A stretch of 58,604 nt of DNA, from positions 1 through 58,604 of the forward strand of contig JAADFL010000121.1 of assembly GCA_013152945.1 (NCBI GenBank), written 5' to 3'. This document shows positions 45,316 through 56,232 of this stretch, piece after piece. Every line of letters starts with the position of its first letter. Position 1 is the first letter of the stretch. This stretch comes from Deltaproteobacteria bacterium. GTDB taxonomy: Bacteria; Myxococcota_A; JAADFL01. A program made the position numbers and the translations under genes. Under the pieces are notes generated by a model. That model saw only the letters and a program-made list of their open reading frames with translations. It searched no databases and was not told where the DNA came from.

Positions 45316-46110
45316 TCAGGGACAGGGATTCTGGTCCCGGCCACACGGATCTTTTGGTTCGCAAAGGCCGAATTTACAAGTTCGTCCGTCTGGACAATCC
45401 CGGTCTGCAAGGCAGGTTTGTACACATGCCGCATCCAGGCAAACAAAGCCGTCCGGGCAGTCAGAGTTGAAGCTGCAGCCGGCTTCACACAAGCCTGCTT
45501 TGCAAATCTCGTCAATGCCGCAGTCCTGGTTGCCTTTGCAAATCTTGCGGCACCACCCGTCCAAGCACAACCAGTCTTGATCGCAGTCTGCCTGGATATG
45601 GCATGCTCCAGGCTCAAGGGTGCACAGATGATCTTTACATTCCTCATTAAAGCCGCAATCCTGGTTATTATCGCATAGCCTCACGCATTTTCGATCGAGG
45701 CATCTTTCGCCCTTTGGACACTCTGACGAGCAGGTACACACGGGCCGGCCGGCGTTGGTATCAATATCCGTATCCGCGTCTGTATCCGTGTCTGTATCCG
45801 CGTCTGTATCGATATCGATATCGCTGTCCGTGTCCGTATCAGCATCGATGTCAGTGTCTGAATCGGCGTCCACGTCAATATCCGATCCGGGCCGCGTGTC
45901 AGTGTCCCGGCCGGAACACGGCCCGCCGTCGTTGCCCTGCGAGTGTGACGGCCAGCAGGTGTAAGAGTCACAGCAGTAACCGTTATAGCATGCAATGTCG
46001 CAATTCCTCCCGTATGCTTTCCCACATGCTTCCTCGTCAAGGCAGCATGAGCCGAGCAAGAGAGAACAAGAGAACGGTAATGCGAATAACAAAGCTTGCG
46101 AAGCTCTCAT
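45316..46110 (-). CDS. Cys-rich lipoprotein with Asp/Thr repeat
   Basis: A 264-residue protein with a signal peptide and lipobox LLLGSC (Cys22). A 50-residue stretch (about 69-118) alternates Asp with Thr, Ser, Ile, Ala or Val. The remainder has repeated Cys modules such as CSSECPKGERCLDRKC and CNSDCPDGFVCLDAACVQTC, as in surface-exposed Cys-rich lipoproteins of Myxococcota-like bacteria. It is 15 bases behind the barrel gene at 46126-47025. Function unknown. Confidence 0.88.
   Translation of the reverse strand: MRASQALLFALPFSCSLLLGSCCLDEEACGKAYGRNCDIACYNGYCCDSYTCWPSHSQGNDGGPCSGRDTDTRPGSDIDVDADSDTDIDADTDTDSDIDIDTDADTDTDTDADTDIDTNAGRPVCTCSSECPKGERCLDRKCVRLCDNNQDCGFNEECKDHLCTLEPGACHIQADCDQDWLCLDGWCRKICKGNQDCGIDEICKAGLCEAGCSFNSDCPDGFVCLDAACVQTCLADRDCPDGRTCKFGLCEPKDPCGRDQNPCP
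45757..45906 (-). repeat. Coding Asp/Thr (DT/DI/DA) microsatellite-like repeat
   Basis: Fifty residues encoded by near-repeats of GTATCC/GTGTCT-type hexamers on the plus strand, reading as alternating Asp and a small or branched residue. Such runs can gain or lose units by slippage without changing frame when the unit is a multiple of three. Confidence 0.85.
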
Positions 46111-48403: not shown

Positions 48404-50218
48404 TTAAAGATCATTTTCCTTGAGAAACCTGTACAGGGTTGCTCTCCCTACCCCGAGGAGTTTGGCTGCCTTTACCTTGTTCCCATTCGTTTCTTCAAGG
48501 GCTTGTCTTATTGAAGGCAAGTCGAGCCTCTTTCTCTTGCCGGTTTGGGCGCGATCTTTCCTGTCATCGAGGTCCATGGGAATGTGCCAGCTATTGGCTC
48601 CTCCCATGATTTCAGGAGGTAAATGGCCGAGTTGTATCTTTCCGTCTTTACAATAAATGGAAGCGAATTGCATGGCGTTTACAAGCTCCCGAACATTCCC
48701 GGGCCAATGATACTCCATGAACCGGTCCATAACCTCGGTGGAAACAGATTCAATGTTGACATGGCTCTCTTTTCTGATGGATCCGGCTATCCGCTCCACA
48801 ATCAATGGAATATCCTCTTTTCTCTCGCGCAAAGGGGGCAGGTGTATTGGAACTACGCAAAGGCGGTAGTACAAATCTTCTCTGAAGATTTTTTCGTGGA
48901 CGAGTTTCTTCAAATCCTTGTTGGTGGCGCTCACAATACGCACGTCCACGGAAATTGATTTCTCGCCTCCAACCTTTTCAAAGCTCTGTTCCTGTAGCAC
49001 ACGCAGCAGGTGAACCTGCAACGACGGGTACAATTCACCGATTTCGTCCAGGAACAATGTGCCGTTGTCTGCCAGTTCGAAACGTCCCTTCTTTTCACGT
49101 ATTGCGCCGGTAAATGCCCCGCGGACATGTCCGAACAGTTCGCTTTCGAGAATATTTTCAGGCAATGCACCGCAATTGATCGGAACAAAAGGATTATCCT
49201 TTCGGGTGCTCTCCAGGTGGATGGCCCTGGCAGCGAGTTCTTTGCCGGTTCCGCTTTCCCCGCTGATGAGCACAGGGTACCTCGATTTCGCGACTTCCCG
49301 GATACTAAAGAAGATCTCCTGCATGACCCTGGATTGACCTACCATTTCGTGGAAAACCGGCTGCCTGGAATGCTCCATGCGGAGATTGTTTACCTCGGTG
49401 ATGTCTTTGATTGAAAGAATCACTGCAGGTCTGTTGCCTGGATTCAGTTCGATAGCAGCAGTGGACATGCGTAGTTTTTTCTTTACCCCTGAAGGAGTTT
49501 GAACAGTGGTTTCGTACCTTCTATGGCCTGGTGGCGTGGCAGGGCCGTACTCGAATGGGCATTCTCCCTTGCACAAGCCATTGGGTGCGAATATTCCATG
49601 ACAATCCTTCCCAAGTATCTCGGTTTTCTTTACCCCGGTTATCCTCTCTGCAGCCTTGTTGAATAAGAAAACCCGGCGATGAGGATCATGCACGATTATG
49701 CCTTCTTCCAAGATATCCAGGAGATTTTCGAGGTGATTCCTCTTGTCCATGAAAGCCTGGATGTATCCATGATTGAACAGGGCTTCGATCTTTATTTGCA
49801 ATTCGTTTGAAATCGCTCGTAGTACCGGCAACGCTTTCTCCCGGTCTCCTGAAACAGGTTCGTATTCTTGTAAAGGCCAGTACAGGTAAAAGGGGTCTCT
49901 TTGAAAAATCGATGGAGATCCATCCAGCCCCATCTTTTGTGAATCCTGGCAAAATTCGTGACTCGACCGGGTTAGCGTTATAATAAGATCGAACTCGTGA
50001 TTTTTCAGGTTGCTCAAGGATTTTGGATGCAGGTCCTGGGCATCGATGTTTCTCTCCCTTAATACCTGTATTGATAGAGGATCCAGGATACCGGCTTGAA
50101 GGCCGGCGCTTGTCACTTCAACAAGGTTATTGCCCATGTGGCGTACCAATGCCTCTGCCAGTTGACTCTTACAGGAATTGAAATTCCCTAGAAAGAGCAT
50201 CTTGAATTTCTCAACCAT
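48404..50218 (-). CDS. Sigma-54-dependent activator with degenerate LMW-phosphatase/ArsC-like sensor and PAS domain
   Basis: A 604-residue protein starting at the ATG with AAAAAGG upstream. Residues 1-145 align with low-molecular-weight tyrosine phosphatase/ArsC folds, but the P-loop reads LFLGNFNSCKSQLAEAL: the nucleophile Cys is Gly11 and the invariant Arg is Lys17, while Cys16 and Ser18 are kept, so catalysis is unlikely. A Cys-containing PAS domain follows (about 165-285, DCHGIFAPNGLCKGECPF). The AAA+ core has GESGTGKELAAR, GAFTGA (the sigma-54 contact) and DEIGEL, and a Fis-type HTH (NKVKAAKLLGVGRATLYRFL) ends it. It probably binds upstream of the divergent sigma-54 promoter at 50414 and senses redox, metal or an oxyanion through the front domains (inference). 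Confidence 0.93.
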   Translation of the reverse strand: MVEKFKMLFLGNFNSCKSQLAEALVRHMGNNLVEVTSAGLQAGILDPLSIQVLRERNIDAQDLHPKSLSNLKNHEFDLIITLTRSSHEFCQDSQKMGLDGSPSIFQRDPFYLYWPLQEYEPVSGDREKALPVLRAISNELQIKIEALFNHGYIQAFMDKRNHLENLLDILEEGIIVHDPHRRVFLFNKAAERITGVKKTEILGKDCHGIFAPNGLCKGECPFEYGPATPPGHRRYETTVQTPSGVKKKLRMSTAAIELNPGNRPAVILSIKDITEVNNLRMEHSRQPVFHEMVGQSRVMQEIFFSIREVAKSRYPVLISGESGTGKELAARAIHLESTRKDNPFVPINCGALPENILESELFGHVRGAFTGAIREKKGRFELADNGTLFLDEIGELYPSLQVHLLRVLQEQSFEKVGGEKSISVDVRIVSATNKDLKKLVHEKIFREDLYYRLCVVPIHLPPLRERKEDIPLIVERIAGSIRKESHVNIESVSTEVMDRFMEYHWPGNVRELVNAMQFASIYCKDGKIQLGHLPPEIMGGANSWHIPMDLDDRKDRAQTGKRKRLDLPSIRQALEETNGNKVKAAKLLGVGRATLYRFLKENDL

Positions 50219-50307
50219 GAACACACACCTTTTTCAAATTAATAAATAGCACACCCTATCCAAATTGGGCAATCAATGATAATAGAGACGACAAGACAGT
50301 GCGCCAG

Positions 50308-50365
50308 TGTCTCATTTGGTTATTAAGAAACAATATTAAGGCGTTTTGGTTTATCAAGTGAGACA
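50308..50365. promoter_or_regulatory. Candidate upstream activator site (inverted repeat)
   Basis: TGTCTCA at 50308-50314 and its complement TGAGACA at 50359-50365, extending to 9 of 10 matches when flanks are included. It lies 50-120 bases upstream of the sigma-54 promoter, where enhancer sites for the neighbouring activator would be expected. Confidence 0.4.
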
Positions 50366-50413: not shown

Positions 50414-50429
50414 TGGCATGAGTATTGCT
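50414..50429 (+). promoter_or_regulatory. Sigma-54 (-24/-12) promoter
   Basis: TGGCATG-AGTA-TTGCT matches the consensus TGGCACR-N4-TTGCW with one mismatch and correct spacing. It is about 45 bases before the first gene of the small-protein/rubrerythrin operon and divergent from a sigma-54 activator. Confidence 0.75.
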
Positions 50430-50472
50430 GTTGAAACCAGGGAGCAACAGGATTTAGGGAAAGGAGATGACT

Positions 50473-50685
50473 ATGCTTAAAACCGTGCCGAAAAGAAGAA
50501 GGCATATTCCTGCCTATACTTGCCTGGGTTGTCCGCTTACCAAGAATCGGTCCAATTGGTGCTTCAGGTTGTGCAAGCCTCATAATGGATTGGGGTTTTG
50601 CGGCAGGCCCGCTCCCCATGCCTTGCGTGGGCGGATACAGCGGGGAATAGATGCTTACAAACGCACTCATTCCCTGGCAAAGTGA
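50473..50685 (+). CDS. Small Cys-rich protein
   Basis: A 70-residue protein. The ATG at 50473, six bases after AAAGGAG, is chosen. It has five Cys at 17, 20, 30, 34 and 43 in CLGCPLTKNRSNWCFRLC and GFCG, suggesting metal or cluster binding; the rest is basic. No signal peptide. I do not recognise the family. It is the first gene after the sigma-54 promoter. Confidence 0.72.
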   Translation: MLKTVPKRRRHIPAYTCLGCPLTKNRSNWCFRLCKPHNGLGFCGRPAPHALRGRIQRGIDAYKRTHSLAK

Positions 50686-50689
50686 AGAC

Positions 50690-50941
50690 ATGGAAAGCGC
50701 ACACAAGGGGGACGACATGGAGTCTGCGATTTCCTTTGATAGGAACTTGAACCAGGTTATAAACCTCACCAGTGATATGCTGGCGCTTGCTGCAAAGGGA
50801 GACCAGGAAAGACACGATCCCTGGTGTGGAATAGTGTACGGAGTGCTTCGCGATGCTGCATACAAATTGCGCAGACTTGCGGAAAAAGAGCTTATAAGGC
50901 ACAAGGAAAAAAGCGACATGCAGAACATGAAGGAAAGTTGA
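50690..50941 (+). CDS. Small helical protein, sigma-54 operon
   Basis: An 83-residue acidic/basic helical protein starting four bases after the previous stop; a second in-frame ATG at 50717, with GGGGGAC in front, is equally possible. The conserved-looking part is HDPWCGIVYGVLRDAAYKLRRL, in which one Cys (46) sits in a predicted amphipathic helix. I do not recognise the function. Its position between the Cys-rich gene and the rubrerythrin points to an oxidative-stress or iron-related role (inference). Confidence 0.65.
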   Translation: MESAHKGDDMESAISFDRNLNQVINLTSDMLALAAKGDQERHDPWCGIVYGVLRDAAYKLRRLAEKELIRHKEKSDMQNMKES

Positions 50942-52826: not shown

Positions 52827-54023
52827 CTACTTGCATACACCATTCCTCTTTCCCAGGTCCAGGCATGCCGGATCGCCACAGGCATCAGGGCCAAGACACA
52901 CTTTCGGGCAATCCGAGGAGGCGCTGCATCTTTGGCCTATGAATGCACAGAGCGTCAAACCTTGTTCAGCCAGGCATTCATTGCTGATGCAATCATCGTT
53001 GAAAAGGCATGGGTCGCCTGTTTTACCTGCGCCCAGTCCCGGCGCACACTGAAAGGGCGGATCTATGAATGCATAGGCATCGTCCATGCCCGCAAGAGAC
53101 CTTTTTGTACATGCCTGTCCCAAGGGGCAGTCCTGGTCCGAGCAGCATGACGAACACGTTCCCTTGCAGCATATACCTGTACTACATTCCTCGGATGTGA
53201 CGCATCTTTCACCCATGGCCTTTTGAGAGGACAAGTCACAGCGGGTTGTTTCATGTTGGTTTTCATAGACAAAAGAGCAGGCTTGGCCCTGGCCGCAGTC
53301 ATTGCTATCTTTACATGGGGTGCACCTGGCCCCGTATTTCAGGTAGCTATCGGATTCCGAATCCAAGTTCGTGCAAAAACCGTTCGAGCACTGGCTGTTC
53401 TTTTCGCAAGGAGTGCCGTCAGGCCTGTTGTCGAGATCAAGAGGTGTTCCCATGCAATCCATGCCGTCTTGTACCCTTATTCTTGCGAGAACAGCCTTCC
53501 CGGGTCCTGTCTTCCGTACTATGAACCTCACCGAAGAGTACCAGGTAGGAGCCTTGATTTTGTAGTCGACAGGAGTCCAGTCACCGGATGGTATCGGATG
53601 GGAATACTCCAATGTTCCATCGTCCTGGAAATCCATTTCGAGGAAAAGCTCGGCCTGGTCGTCTTTCTTGACCAACAGGTCGAATTCGAAACACTTGGGA
53701 AGACCGAGTGTGTCATCCAGGTTGGCAAGCTGGCTTAGTTTTACGTCGTTACCGACAAGTGCTACGCCATAATCCTTTTCATGCCACGTAGGAACCCGCT
53801 CTATCTTGCCTTCTACGTCCCATGAACAAAGCGAATCCCCGCACCAGAGGTCGAAATCGGGGTTCTGTATCAGGTCGTGACCACAGCCGTTACCCCGGAG
53901 GAACAATATGGCTACAATGGACAATATTGTTTTGCCAAGCCAGTCAGGAAGACCGTATTTCTTTTTATTCCCCGATTCATTCGCGCCTGCATCCTTTCTT
54001 GATAAGAGATTGTAATTATTCAT
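52827..54023 (-). CDS. Cys-rich surface lipoprotein (module 2)
   Basis: A 398-residue protein. An unusually long, charged N-region precedes a signal helix ending in FLRGNGC (Cys47). A domain resembling a carbohydrate-binding/galactose-binding beta-sandwich (about 50-180, NPDFDLWCGDSLCSWDVEGK, ADWTPVDYKIKAPTWY-like strands) is followed by four Cys-rich modules (CVTSEECSTGICCKGTC, CSDQDCPLGQACTKR). Its ATG overlaps the caspase stop (ATGA). It takes the place of the propeller lipoprotein in module 1 and is a candidate ligand-binding partner. Confidence 0.86.
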   Translation of the reverse strand: MNNYNLLSRKDAGANESGNKKKYGLPDWLGKTILSIVAILFLRGNGCGHDLIQNPDFDLWCGDSLCSWDVEGKIERVPTWHEKDYGVALVGNDVKLSQLANLDDTLGLPKCFEFDLLVKKDDQAELFLEMDFQDDGTLEYSHPIPSGDWTPVDYKIKAPTWYSSVRFIVRKTGPGKAVLARIRVQDGMDCMGTPLDLDNRPDGTPCEKNSQCSNGFCTNLDSESDSYLKYGARCTPCKDSNDCGQGQACSFVYENQHETTRCDLSSQKAMGERCVTSEECSTGICCKGTCSSCCSDQDCPLGQACTKRSLAGMDDAYAFIDPPFQCAPGLGAGKTGDPCLFNDDCISNECLAEQGLTLCAFIGQRCSASSDCPKVCLGPDACGDPACLDLGKRNGVCK

Positions 54024-55747
54024 ATTGCACCTCTCACTCCAATGGAAAAAGTGAATCCTCCGTCGTCATGCGTGTCACCCACCAGGTTCTTCAGGGCCGG
54101 AGCAAATACGTAACCGCCTTGAACGAACATTCCAAAATGCTGCCAGAACATGGTGCTCAACCCTGCGGACACAGAGATGTTGTAACCATAGTGATATTGA
54201 ATATCGTTTTCTCCATTCTCGACCGACATGTGGGATTTGACAATCGTCATTCCCCCGCCTGCCTGTATGTACGGTGTCAACCAGTAGTCCAGCAAGGGCA
54301 GGGATGCCCTGGCTTCCAGGCTTATCCTGTGGGCCGTCCAATCGAATCTGGATTCTTCGTTGTTCCCGGACTGGCTGTTGATCATTCTCTTATAGTCGCC
54401 TTGGTCGAGCGTACTGTAGGTCAGGTCAAGGGCAAGATTCCGCGACAGGTGGTAAAGCAGGGATGCCTGGAGGTAGATATTGTTTCCACTGAAAAGCTGG
54501 GCCTCGTAGCCAAAGGTCTCCAGCCGGTCCGTATACTTGTCCGTGCGACCCAGTGTTCCACCGAATGCAAGCTCCATGGAAAACACCGGATCCGGCCTTC
54601 CCAAAGCAGCAGCCTTGATGGTGGTTTTGGCTTCTTCCACCGGCTCGCAGTGATTTGTTTCAAGTGTTTTGGTTTGGTTTGCGTCAAGTTTGAAAGAGCA
54701 CTTTTTTGCATGATTGTCTTGTTTCAAGATGGCGCTGTACTTTCCAGGAACCAGGGCTATTCGCACAAGCCCGCCTTCGGCCTTAAATACCTCTGCAACT
54801 ACCATGCCCGACGGCCTTGAATACACCAGCAAGTCTCCTTTCATAGCAGCAGGCAGCTCCAGCCTGGAACTGGCCCTTGAAGGGTACGAGAGCACCATGT
54901 CGCCCTTGCCGCGAAGATCTGTCTGAAGAGTCACGTGTTGACTTCCGACAGCAGTCGATGCAGTAGAGATCAATGTCCTGTTGTATGCATAACTATAGGC
55001 CTCCGACAGGGTCACACGGCCGTCACCATTACTATCCGCAGCGCCTCTGAGTCCACTAACCAAGTGGTTGGTAAAGAAAGAACCGCCTATGTCATCCGAT
55101 TCCTGGGACAGCTCGTTCGCGGTGCTGGATGCCATTACCACAGTGCCCTTGGTGTTGAGTCCTGATACGAAATTATAAGAGAACGACTTTGCCGGTTTTG
55201 CTCCCTTAATATTCGAAATGGCACCTGACTGGCAGGCATCCAGTATTACCAACTTGACTGTCGCAGGCATGGATATTAGTTTTTGCTTCAATGTTGCAAG
55301 GCTTATCCGATCTCCTCCAAGATCCAGGTCAGAGGCCCTCGCATGGCCGGAGTAGTAGAAGAGAAAAATGCTTTTTTCATCCTGTAATGACAGGGCCTGA
55401 AGTTTTTTAGAGATCTTTTTGATCTGGTCCATTACCTCGACCGCAGATGGATTCGACAGGTGCTTCACGTTTTCGGGCCGGTACCCTCCCAACTCCTCCA
55501 GCACCTGGGCCAAACGTCCGGCGTCTGCATCTGGATACTTGAGTTCTTCCTGGCCCTTACCCGGCACGGCACTACTGACTAGCAGGGCAAAGGATTGCAG
55601 GGATTGATCCGGCATTGTTGATGCTGTTTCTCCTGCAACCGATATATCGGCCTGGAGAAACGATATGAGGCAAATAAGTATCAAGCTATCCCGGGGTTTG
55701 AAGACTCTATAGGGATAATGCATACATTCTGTTGCACTTGACATCAT
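54020..55747 (-). CDS. Secreted caspase-fold protein with C-terminal beta-barrel (module 2)
   Basis: A 575-residue protein; the ATG at 55747, eight bases after GGGAGG, gives a signal peptide (SLILICLISFLQADISVAG). The caspase domain (about 50-280) carries candidate catalytic His135 in FYYSGHA and Cys172 in DACQSGA, close to canonical motifs. An EF-hand-like loop, DSNGDGRVTLSE, is at 238-249, and GSQHVTLQTDLRGKGDMVLS matches a common end of myxobacterial caspase-fold proteins. A short beta domain and about 180 residues of barrel-like strands follow (LFSGNNIYLQASLLYHL, ISVSAGLSTMFWQHFGMF). It is the first gene of module 2. Confidence 0.88.
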   Translation of the reverse strand: MMSSATECMHYPYRVFKPRDSLILICLISFLQADISVAGETASTMPDQSLQSFALLVSSAVPGKGQEELKYPDADAGRLAQVLEELGGYRPENVKHLSNPSAVEVMDQIKKISKKLQALSLQDEKSIFLFYYSGHARASDLDLGGDRISLATLKQKLISMPATVKLVILDACQSGAISNIKGAKPAKSFSYNFVSGLNTKGTVVMASSTANELSQESDDIGGSFFTNHLVSGLRGAADSNGDGRVTLSEAYSYAYNRTLISTASTAVGSQHVTLQTDLRGKGDMVLSYPSRASSRLELPAAMKGDLLVYSRPSGMVVAEVFKAEGGLVRIALVPGKYSAILKQDNHAKKCSFKLDANQTKTLETNHCEPVEEAKTTIKAAALGRPDPVFSMELAFGGTLGRTDKYTDRLETFGYEAQLFSGNNIYLQASLLYHLSRNLALDLTYSTLDQGDYKRMINSQSGNNEESRFDWTAHRISLEARASLPLLDYWLTPYIQAGGGMTIVKSHMSVENGENDIQYHYGYNISVSAGLSTMFWQHFGMFVQGGYVFAPALKNLVGDTHDDGGFTFSIGVRGAI

Positions 55748-56232
55748 GGCGAATACCTCCCTTGTCTGCCTGTCTAACAAGTTAACACCCAAAGAGCAGA
55801 TCATGGGAACCAGGACCGCATTTTTTATTTCCCGGGCGACCGGACAGGGCCGGACCCGAAAAGGGGATGGGTGAAGAGTCTCAATTGATATTATTGGTGT
55901 TTTATGGTTGGAGTTGGGTTCGCCGCGTCATGAAAATGAAATTATCCAAATATTGAAATAACAGGGACCGTCTCCGGGTGGAAGGATAACAGCAAGTTCC
56001 AGGTATATATTTTCCATTGGTTTCAAGGCCTGTCATTTTTCCCCATTCTCCCCAATATCCTATGACTCCGTTATGTGGTGTTGTGTGCAGGGTATAGGCT
56101 TGAAGTTGACAGTCAGCACCAGAGGTTGGATTATGCCCGCATTCATGGCCGTCCGCCCCTGGGGGCGCGGACTGGGACGCGCAAAGCCATCTGTTCTATA
56201 TTGATGTGCGATGATTGATAAAAGGAGGAATT
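55748..56232. other. 485-base divergent intergenic region
   Basis: It lies between the module 2 caspase gene and the endonuclease/phosphatase-family gene and must hold both promoters. No gene was recognised. A hairpin-like sequence GTCCGCCCC-TG-GGGGCGCGGAC sits at 56151-56172, about 60 bases before the next start. Confidence 0.5.

Follow-up and report, generated by a model that had tools for sequence, protein, structure and literature searches.

A sigma-54 activator with an apparently inactive ArsC-like front domain, encoded beside oxygen-defence genes

Introduction

The regulator described here is most readily compared with three known systems: the PAS-type one-component activators of Desulfovibrio vulgaris, NorR together with the NorR-like activator of Desulfovibrio gigas, and the thioredoxin-coupled arsenate reductases (ArsC) and low-molecular-weight protein tyrosine phosphatases (LMW-PTP; PF01451). 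Parts of the published survey of D. vulgaris sigma-54 activators give regulons of mostly one to four operons and name receiver, GAF and PAS domains along with two unknown N-terminal regions (PMC4641369); the word 'phosphatase' does not occur in the main text of that report. In D. gigas, roo, which encodes a flavodiiron protein, is under NorR1L in nitrosative stress, according to part of the published account (PMC4287179).

We analysed a stretch of 58,604 nucleotides from a deltaproteobacterium of the Myxococcota_A (contig JAADFL010000121.1), hereafter the window. It encodes a sigma-54 activator that has the PAS–AAA+–HTH core in common with the D. vulgaris proteins and that is set apart from them, as they are portrayed in parts of the survey, by an extra ArsC-like domain. 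Like NorR and its D. gigas relative, it is a one-component sigma-54 activator encoded beside O2- or NO-removing genes; in contrast to NorR, it lacks a GAF domain and has an ArsC-like domain at the front, followed by a PAS domain that bears a Cys/His motif. The ArsC-like domain shares sequence family and modelled fold with the ArsC/LMW-PTP enzymes, from which it differs in that the nucleophilic Cys, the Arg and the general-acid Asp are changed and in that it is fused to a transcription activator. An enzyme-derived pseudo-domain would in this way have entered regulators of a kind that usually takes its inputs through receiver, GAF or PAS domains.

Results

Architecture of the regulator

The features of the locus are collected in Table 1. 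The regulator gene starts with GTG; an in-frame ATG two codons further on, at 50218, is the end given by the first-pass annotation of this DNA. Pfam recognizes LMWPc at residues 10–89 (42.0 bits, cut-off 23.2), PAS_9, Sigma54_activat (PF00158, 237 bits), AAA_lid_14 and HTH_8, and no GAF domain; the GAFTGA motif of the AAA+ domain lies at residue 369, and GESGTGKE is its Walker A. No NCBIfam model reached its cut-off among the 25 of 36 matches listed, the best being PrdR (391.8 versus 795 bits), and the NorR equivalog scored 328.6 bits against a cut-off of 476, with a match from residue 286 only. One sigma-54 gene is present in the same genome (PF04552, 214 bits, G000:C57). As far as can be judged from sequence, protein and locus display features of a sigma-54 enhancer-binding system, namely the AAA+ motifs, the HTH and sites ahead of a −24/−12 promoter. 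The first-pass annotation had contrasted its unusual sensor with the receiver, GAF and PAS domains of other activators: the ArsC-like domain is indeed there, but a PAS domain, which the annotation did not mention, lies between the two parts.

Table 1. Positions of the regulator, its domains and the adjoining features in the window
Feature	Position	Strand	Basis
Sigma-54 activator gene, LMWPc/ArsC-like–PAS–AAA+–HTH_8	48404..50224	−	606-aa ORF and Pfam
N-terminal ArsC/LMWPc-like domain, predicted to be catalytically dead, residues 1–153	49766..50224	−	Pfam 42 bits; AF2 pLDDT 85.7; best PDB match ArsC
Degenerate P-loop GNFNSCKS, residues 13–20	50165..50188	−	Translation, alignment, motif scan
PAS domain, residues 174–277	49394..49705	−	PAS_9 34 bits; AF2 pLDDT 83.7; matches DosP, FixL, LOV
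PAS motif CHGIFAPNGLCKGEC (Cys208, His209, Cys218, Cys222)	49559..49603	−	Cys, His and both later Cys invariant, 15/15 aligned
AAA+ sigma-54 interaction domain with GESGTGKE and GAFTGA, residues 294–461	48842..49345	−	Pfam and motif positions
Fis-type HTH_8, residues 572–602	48419..48511	−	Pfam
Upstream site TGTCTCA	50308..50314	+	Sequence motif
Upstream site TGAGACA, inverted to the first	50359..50365	+	Sequence motif
Sigma-54 −24/−12 promoter match TGGCATGAGTATTGCT	50414..50429	+	Consensus match
Cys-rich 72-aa ORF	50467..50685	+	No Pfam match; relatives absent from the loci compared
Small helical protein, 96 aa from first ATG, conserved part from ~50717	50651..50941	+	Recurrent partner gene
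Rubrerythrin-family protein, 171 aa	51039..51554	+	PF02915 44.4 bits, cut-off 22.8

A degenerate active site on an ArsC fold

The P-loop of the window protein has Gly in place of the nucleophilic Cys and Lys in place of Arg, while N, S and the final S are retained; on this point translation and an alignment with 68 LMWPc homologues that are not fused to a sigma-54 activator bear out the first-pass annotation. A motif scan found no C-x5-R in the entire protein, and the only Cys among the first 300 residues are at positions 18, 92, 208, 218 and 222, so that no alternative Cys could act as nucleophile. The region of the general-acid Asp is likewise altered, reading WPLQEYEP as opposed to W-x-x-x-DP in homologues. 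Measured against active LMW-PTP/ArsC enzymes, the window protein thus agrees in family and fold and lacks both C-x5-R-S and the Asp of the DP loop.

Among these 68 homologues, Cys is kept in 66 and Arg, Ser and Asp in all, whereas the first 13 fused members in the same alignment, which predates the discovery of the intact G1020 and G1017 proteins, retain Cys in one, Arg in three, Ser in three and Asp in four. Since Cys and Arg are kept almost throughout the former and rarely in the latter, the loss is more than a matter of chance or of a sequencing slip. Both exceptions among the 68 (L013 and L114) have Gly for Cys and belong to other kinds of fusion. A sequencing error in the window was considered and ruled out, the Cys being missing also in 11 members from other genomes.

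An AlphaFold2 (AF2) model of the N-terminal domain, built on an alignment of ten fused relatives, reached a pLDDT of 85.7 and a pTM of 0.84. Its top PDB matches are the thioredoxin-type arsenate reductases 8p5n, 8p6m and 1jl3 (E 3e-10 to 3e-9), with LMW phosphatases ranking behind. Given these matches, the statement that fold-defining residues are kept was right, and of the label 'phosphatase/ArsC-like' the second half is, by the model, the closer one. The one other LMWPc protein of the genome has an intact loop, CVANSARS. As seen by eye, the only intact ArsC of the genome (L001 1141–1893, G000:C77) has an N-terminal thioredoxin-like part fused on. Reading by eye through the ORFs listed near the window gene and near the three intact members described below, we recognized no ars genes.

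Relatives with the same front end

Searches that used the N-terminal part, either as a single query or as a profile, show that the pairing of an ArsC-like front end with this regulator is real and recurs in several phyla, with 15 distinct members, 14 of them beyond the window protein (relatives are denoted below by their genomes). The fusion was found in at least 3 of 377 genomes in the phylum to which the window belongs (window, G200, G007) and in at least 6 of 395 in the phylum that includes a Desulfobacterales genome (G657, G610, G710, G483, G411, G563); these are lower bounds, since 7 to 8 candidates were scored per genome and members may have been missed. The class of G483 yielded 8 members in 46 genomes, five already found plus G1004, G975 and G991. 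In the phylum of a Bryobacteraceae genome there was one in 199 (G889), and in the class of that genome three in 38 (G889 with G1020 and G1017). Judged from titles and abstract openings, no description of an LMWPc–sigma-54 fusion was recognized among the papers that the literature searches listed.

The nucleophile is missing in 12 of the 15 members, the window protein included, and is replaced by G, S, A or N. Besides GNFNSCKS, the loops read SDRDACRG, GKEDWSLP, NDGANNLA, SDISPARA, SSDMLCAA, ADGYPIKP, ASKKIPEA, ASKKYAKP, SHDSPEWA, SDDSYFLP and GDERRELP; they differ from one another at nearly every position, and Arg is retained in two of the twelve. Such disagreement argues against a conserved ligand in the pocket. 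The three remaining members, G889, G1020 and G1017, all from one class of Acidobacteriota, have CTGN[GA]GRS and the W-x-x-x-DP loop and also keep both further ArsC cysteines (TLCN..EIC). As regards the first-pass annotation, loss of the Cys is widespread in the family, but its replacement varies and three members keep it; of the finding that it named as refuting, homologues with an intact CX5R loop and phosphatase activity, half is borne out, in that these three have the loop and may be active.

The G483 member (L082 7789–8820, G483:C1) consists of ArsC and PAS parts and lacks AAA+ and HTH. It runs directly into the small helical protein, elsewhere encoded by the following gene, as though the two had been joined by a deletion.

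The PAS domain

The motif DCHxxF...C...C of the PAS domain is conserved without exception: Asp-Cys-His, Phe and both later Cys do not vary in any of the 15 aligned sequences, a set that includes three unfused regulators and leaves aside G483, G1020 and G1017, in whose sequences the same motif was seen. The AF2 model of this domain (pLDDT 83.7) matches haem PAS domains (DosP, FixL) as well as flavin-binding LOV domains in the PDB; matches to both kinds establish the PAS fold and do not tell which cofactor it holds. A PAS domain with a conserved Cys/His motif is a likelier input than the ArsC-like pocket, and we infer that this motif is the sensor.

Histidine-kinase genes lie near four fused members (L047 7536–8531, L079 2433–4676, L085 11983–13944 and L132 825–2749), some with a lone receiver gene, although the activator itself has no receiver domain. 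The PAS domains of those kinases are, by eye, also Cys-rich (CYxxYKxRxxxCxxCPV).

Promoter and upstream sites

In the divergent gap upstream of the regulator, TGGCATGAGTATTGCT is the window's only exact match to TGGCAYGN4TTGCW. The TGTCTCA/TGAGACA pair lies 106 and 55 bases upstream of it, and no other such pair at a spacing of 20–60 occurs in the 4.84-Mb genome. Scored with a matrix of our own making, modelled on the general consensus, a −24/−12 match precedes the small-protein gene in six of nine loci tested, as compared with 0.12 expected on average, and at most one, in 300 dinucleotide shuffles; in five of the six it stands 48–65 bases before the conserved part of the small protein. The TGTCTCA 7-mer is also clustered upstream of these promoters; G563 has seven copies of it. 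None of 419 permuted 7-mers clustered in six loci; the best reached five, and one of those is a one-base shift of the motif.

A rule that asks for a promoter match preceded, within 260 bases, by two or more TGTNTCA/TGANACA sites held for 7 of the 19 activator loci (271 kb) and for none of 75 control loci (279 kb), a comparison that is no blind test, the motif having been taken from the window and five loci being already known when the rule was framed. The rule itself brought up L119, and the site cluster of L121 had already been seen. The rule gave eight matches in activator loci, of which L083 2885 is probably due to chance; 12 of the 19 loci gave none. In the window, G610, G411, G563 and G364, defence genes follow the shared promoter and sites.

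Neighbouring genes

A gene for the small helical protein or a relative of it stands next to seven of the 15 fused members (window, G610, G411, G563, G483, G889, G1020) and next to the unfused regulators of G364, G382 and G675. No Pfam or NCBIfam model matched this family, whose product is likely to be a partner or first target of the activator. Its members, of about 70–96 aa (window 50651–50941; L132 5900–6178; L084 2764–2973; L080 6351–6626; L083 9629–9856), were always beside these activators in the loci seen.

By phmmer, oxygen-defence genes adjoin 7 of 15 fused, 1 of 4 unfused PAS-activator and 0 of 6 control activator loci, the controls being ordinary sigma-54 activator loci drawn from a whole-protein search of genome contigs and shorter on the whole. 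The neighbour in the window is a rubrerythrin. Cytochrome bd subunits lie behind the regulator in G610, G411, G563 and G483; peroxiredoxin, desulfoferrodoxin, ferritin and flavodiiron protein are encoded near the G710, G483 and G975 members; and the unfused G364 regulator has desulfoferrodoxin, a rubrerythrin relative and a flavodiiron protein as neighbours. The defence genes searched for were absent from eight of the 15 fused loci, of which G200, G991 and G1004 are at contig ends and G889, G1020, G1017, G007 and G657 truly lack them over the length examined.

A HEAT-like protein of about 190–230 aa, with no significant Pfam match, is encoded just upstream of the activator at four loci (L081 6766–7332, L082 7119–7703, L117 9034–9654, L119 5604–6305).

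Intact, dead and deleted forms

A tree of the PAS–AAA+–HTH part, comprising 12 fused members and five others and omitting G483 (no AAA+), G1020 and G1017, groups the unfused G364 regulator with the window protein and G200 (support 100/99), and forcing the fused members into one clade is rejected (p-AU 3.6e-5). The simplest reading of these sequences is that the ArsC-like domain was lost in the G364/G243 lineage, where the N-terminus ends in a stretch resembling, by eye, the last ArsC helix. On a single origin of the fusion, the tree of the ArsC domain gave no resolution because its branches are too long.

Relative to AAA+, the divergence of the domain is 2.8–3.7 in three intact pairs and 2.6–5.2 in the nine closest of 55 dead pairs. 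Dead pairs are at most a little faster, so this comparison does not support relaxed selection across the whole dead domain and we make no such claim. In 12 genomes the domain has stayed open and foldable, with a mean identity of about 28 percent, and L10, F11, A23, P111 and W116 are invariant in 13 members.

Discussion

We propose, with a probability of roughly 0.5, that the window protein is a one-component sigma-54 activator of the adjoining oxygen/peroxide-defence operon, that it senses through its PAS domain, and that the dead ArsC fold is a non-catalytic module. The HTH would bind the TGTCTCA/TGAGACA sites, and the PAS domain would read a redox, O2 or NO signal via the invariant Cys-His...Cys...Cys site, which may be a metal, Fe-S or haem site or a thiol switch. 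The AAA+ domain would then open the sigma-54 promoter ahead of the operon that encodes the small protein and rubrerythrin. The N-terminal fold, intact in the Acidobacteriota members, would have lost the nucleophile both in the window's lineage and in those of the Desulfobacterota members, where it may now be a scaffold or interaction module that tunes the activator and not an oxyanion sensor, and would have been deleted in one sister lineage. For the dead domain, a non-catalytic scaffold or interaction role appears likeliest, followed by a pure remnant, a working oxyanion pocket being least likely.

The last of these roles is the one favoured by the first-pass annotation, in which the pocket still binds an oxyanion such as phosphate or arsenate, a thiol or a phosphoprotein as a signal. 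Some dead phosphatases bind substrates; the modelled ArsC fold is retained, and the loop of the window protein keeps N, S, S and a Lys in place of Arg. The dead loops, however, have no conserved sequence, Arg survives in two of twelve, and the G364 regulator has dispensed with the domain and yet keeps site motif, promoter and defence neighbours. The idea fares badly against these observations and we regard it as very improbable. Nor do we see much more reason to take the domain for a cysteine redox sensor, made up of the ArsC Cys triad in intact members and of the left-over Cys18 and Cys92 in the window protein. Three Acidobacteriota members do keep the nucleophile with both further ArsC cysteines, and the window protein, like 4 of the first 13 fused members, has a Cys at the third ArsC position; but in dead members these cysteines are not kept together, whereas those of the PAS domain are, and this explanation is quite unlikely.

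Alternatively, the domain may be a decaying, functionless remnant carried in frame with a useful regulator. Every catalytic position is substituted differently in different members, the dead domains sit on long branches, and the G364/G243 lineage has lost the domain altogether, leaving only the tail that resembles its last helix. This possibility is nevertheless doubtful, given an open, foldable domain with five invariant residues at such low identity and a divergence only a little above that of intact pairs. The regulon could also lie outside oxygen defence, in general energy metabolism for example, with the defence genes as bystanders in the gene-dense operons of anaerobes. The absence of these genes from more than half of the fused loci would fit, as would the multihaem and NapC/NirT cytochromes adjoining G1004 and the Fe-S/heterodisulfide-reductase-like and histidine-kinase genes seen by eye next to G889 and G1020. 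Against this, rubrerythrin, desulfoferrodoxin, flavodiiron protein, ferritin, peroxiredoxin and bd oxidase turn up repeatedly in neighbourhoods of differing layout and, in the five loci named above, behind the shared promoter and sites; such a regulon seems to us rather unlikely.

If the PAS-sensing activator proposed here is what the locus encodes, it ties sigma-54 activators to the way in which anaerobes switch on oxygen defence. With intact, dead and deleted forms in one family, the role of a dead enzyme domain in a regulator becomes directly testable; the predicted binding site and promoter provide a readout for such tests, and the small partner protein is a second lead. One may go further and speculate, quite tentatively, that these proteins form an undescribed sigma-54 family regulating oxygen defence, with a TGTCTCA regulon and a dedicated small partner protein, in which the ArsC domain was at first a thiol redox sensor (the intact Cys triad of the Acidobacteriota), burnt out elsewhere as sensing passed to the Cys-His PAS domain, and in the end was deleted from one lineage. 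Were this true, a sensor swap would be visible at every stage: intact, burnt out and deleted.

Other ArsC fusions and minor observations

Dead and intact ArsC domains were also encountered in unrelated contexts. In a 769-aa frame starting at L048 4342 (G005:C16:74507–74755), and likewise in L013, an ArsC domain with the loop VGVANAARS (nucleophile Gly; Arg, Ser and Asp kept) is followed by what look by eye like tandem ArsA-type ATPases. At L114 1495–2457 (G1000:C56), a flavin-reductase-like domain, recognized by eye, precedes an ArsC with IGTGNTCRS (Cys to Gly); the Cys is kept in its relatives L110, L111, L112 and L115. L044 (G068:C469:1990–2379) combines an apparently PhoU-like domain, again by eye, with an intact ArsC (VCLANAARS) in a single open frame. 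Two further minus-strand frames of the window were noted by eye: one at 54020–55804 with a caspase-like domain (YYSGHA...DACQSG) and a C-terminal beta-barrel-like part, and a lipoprotein-like ORF at 45316–46110 with a long (DTDTDSDTD)n stretch and Cys-rich repeats.
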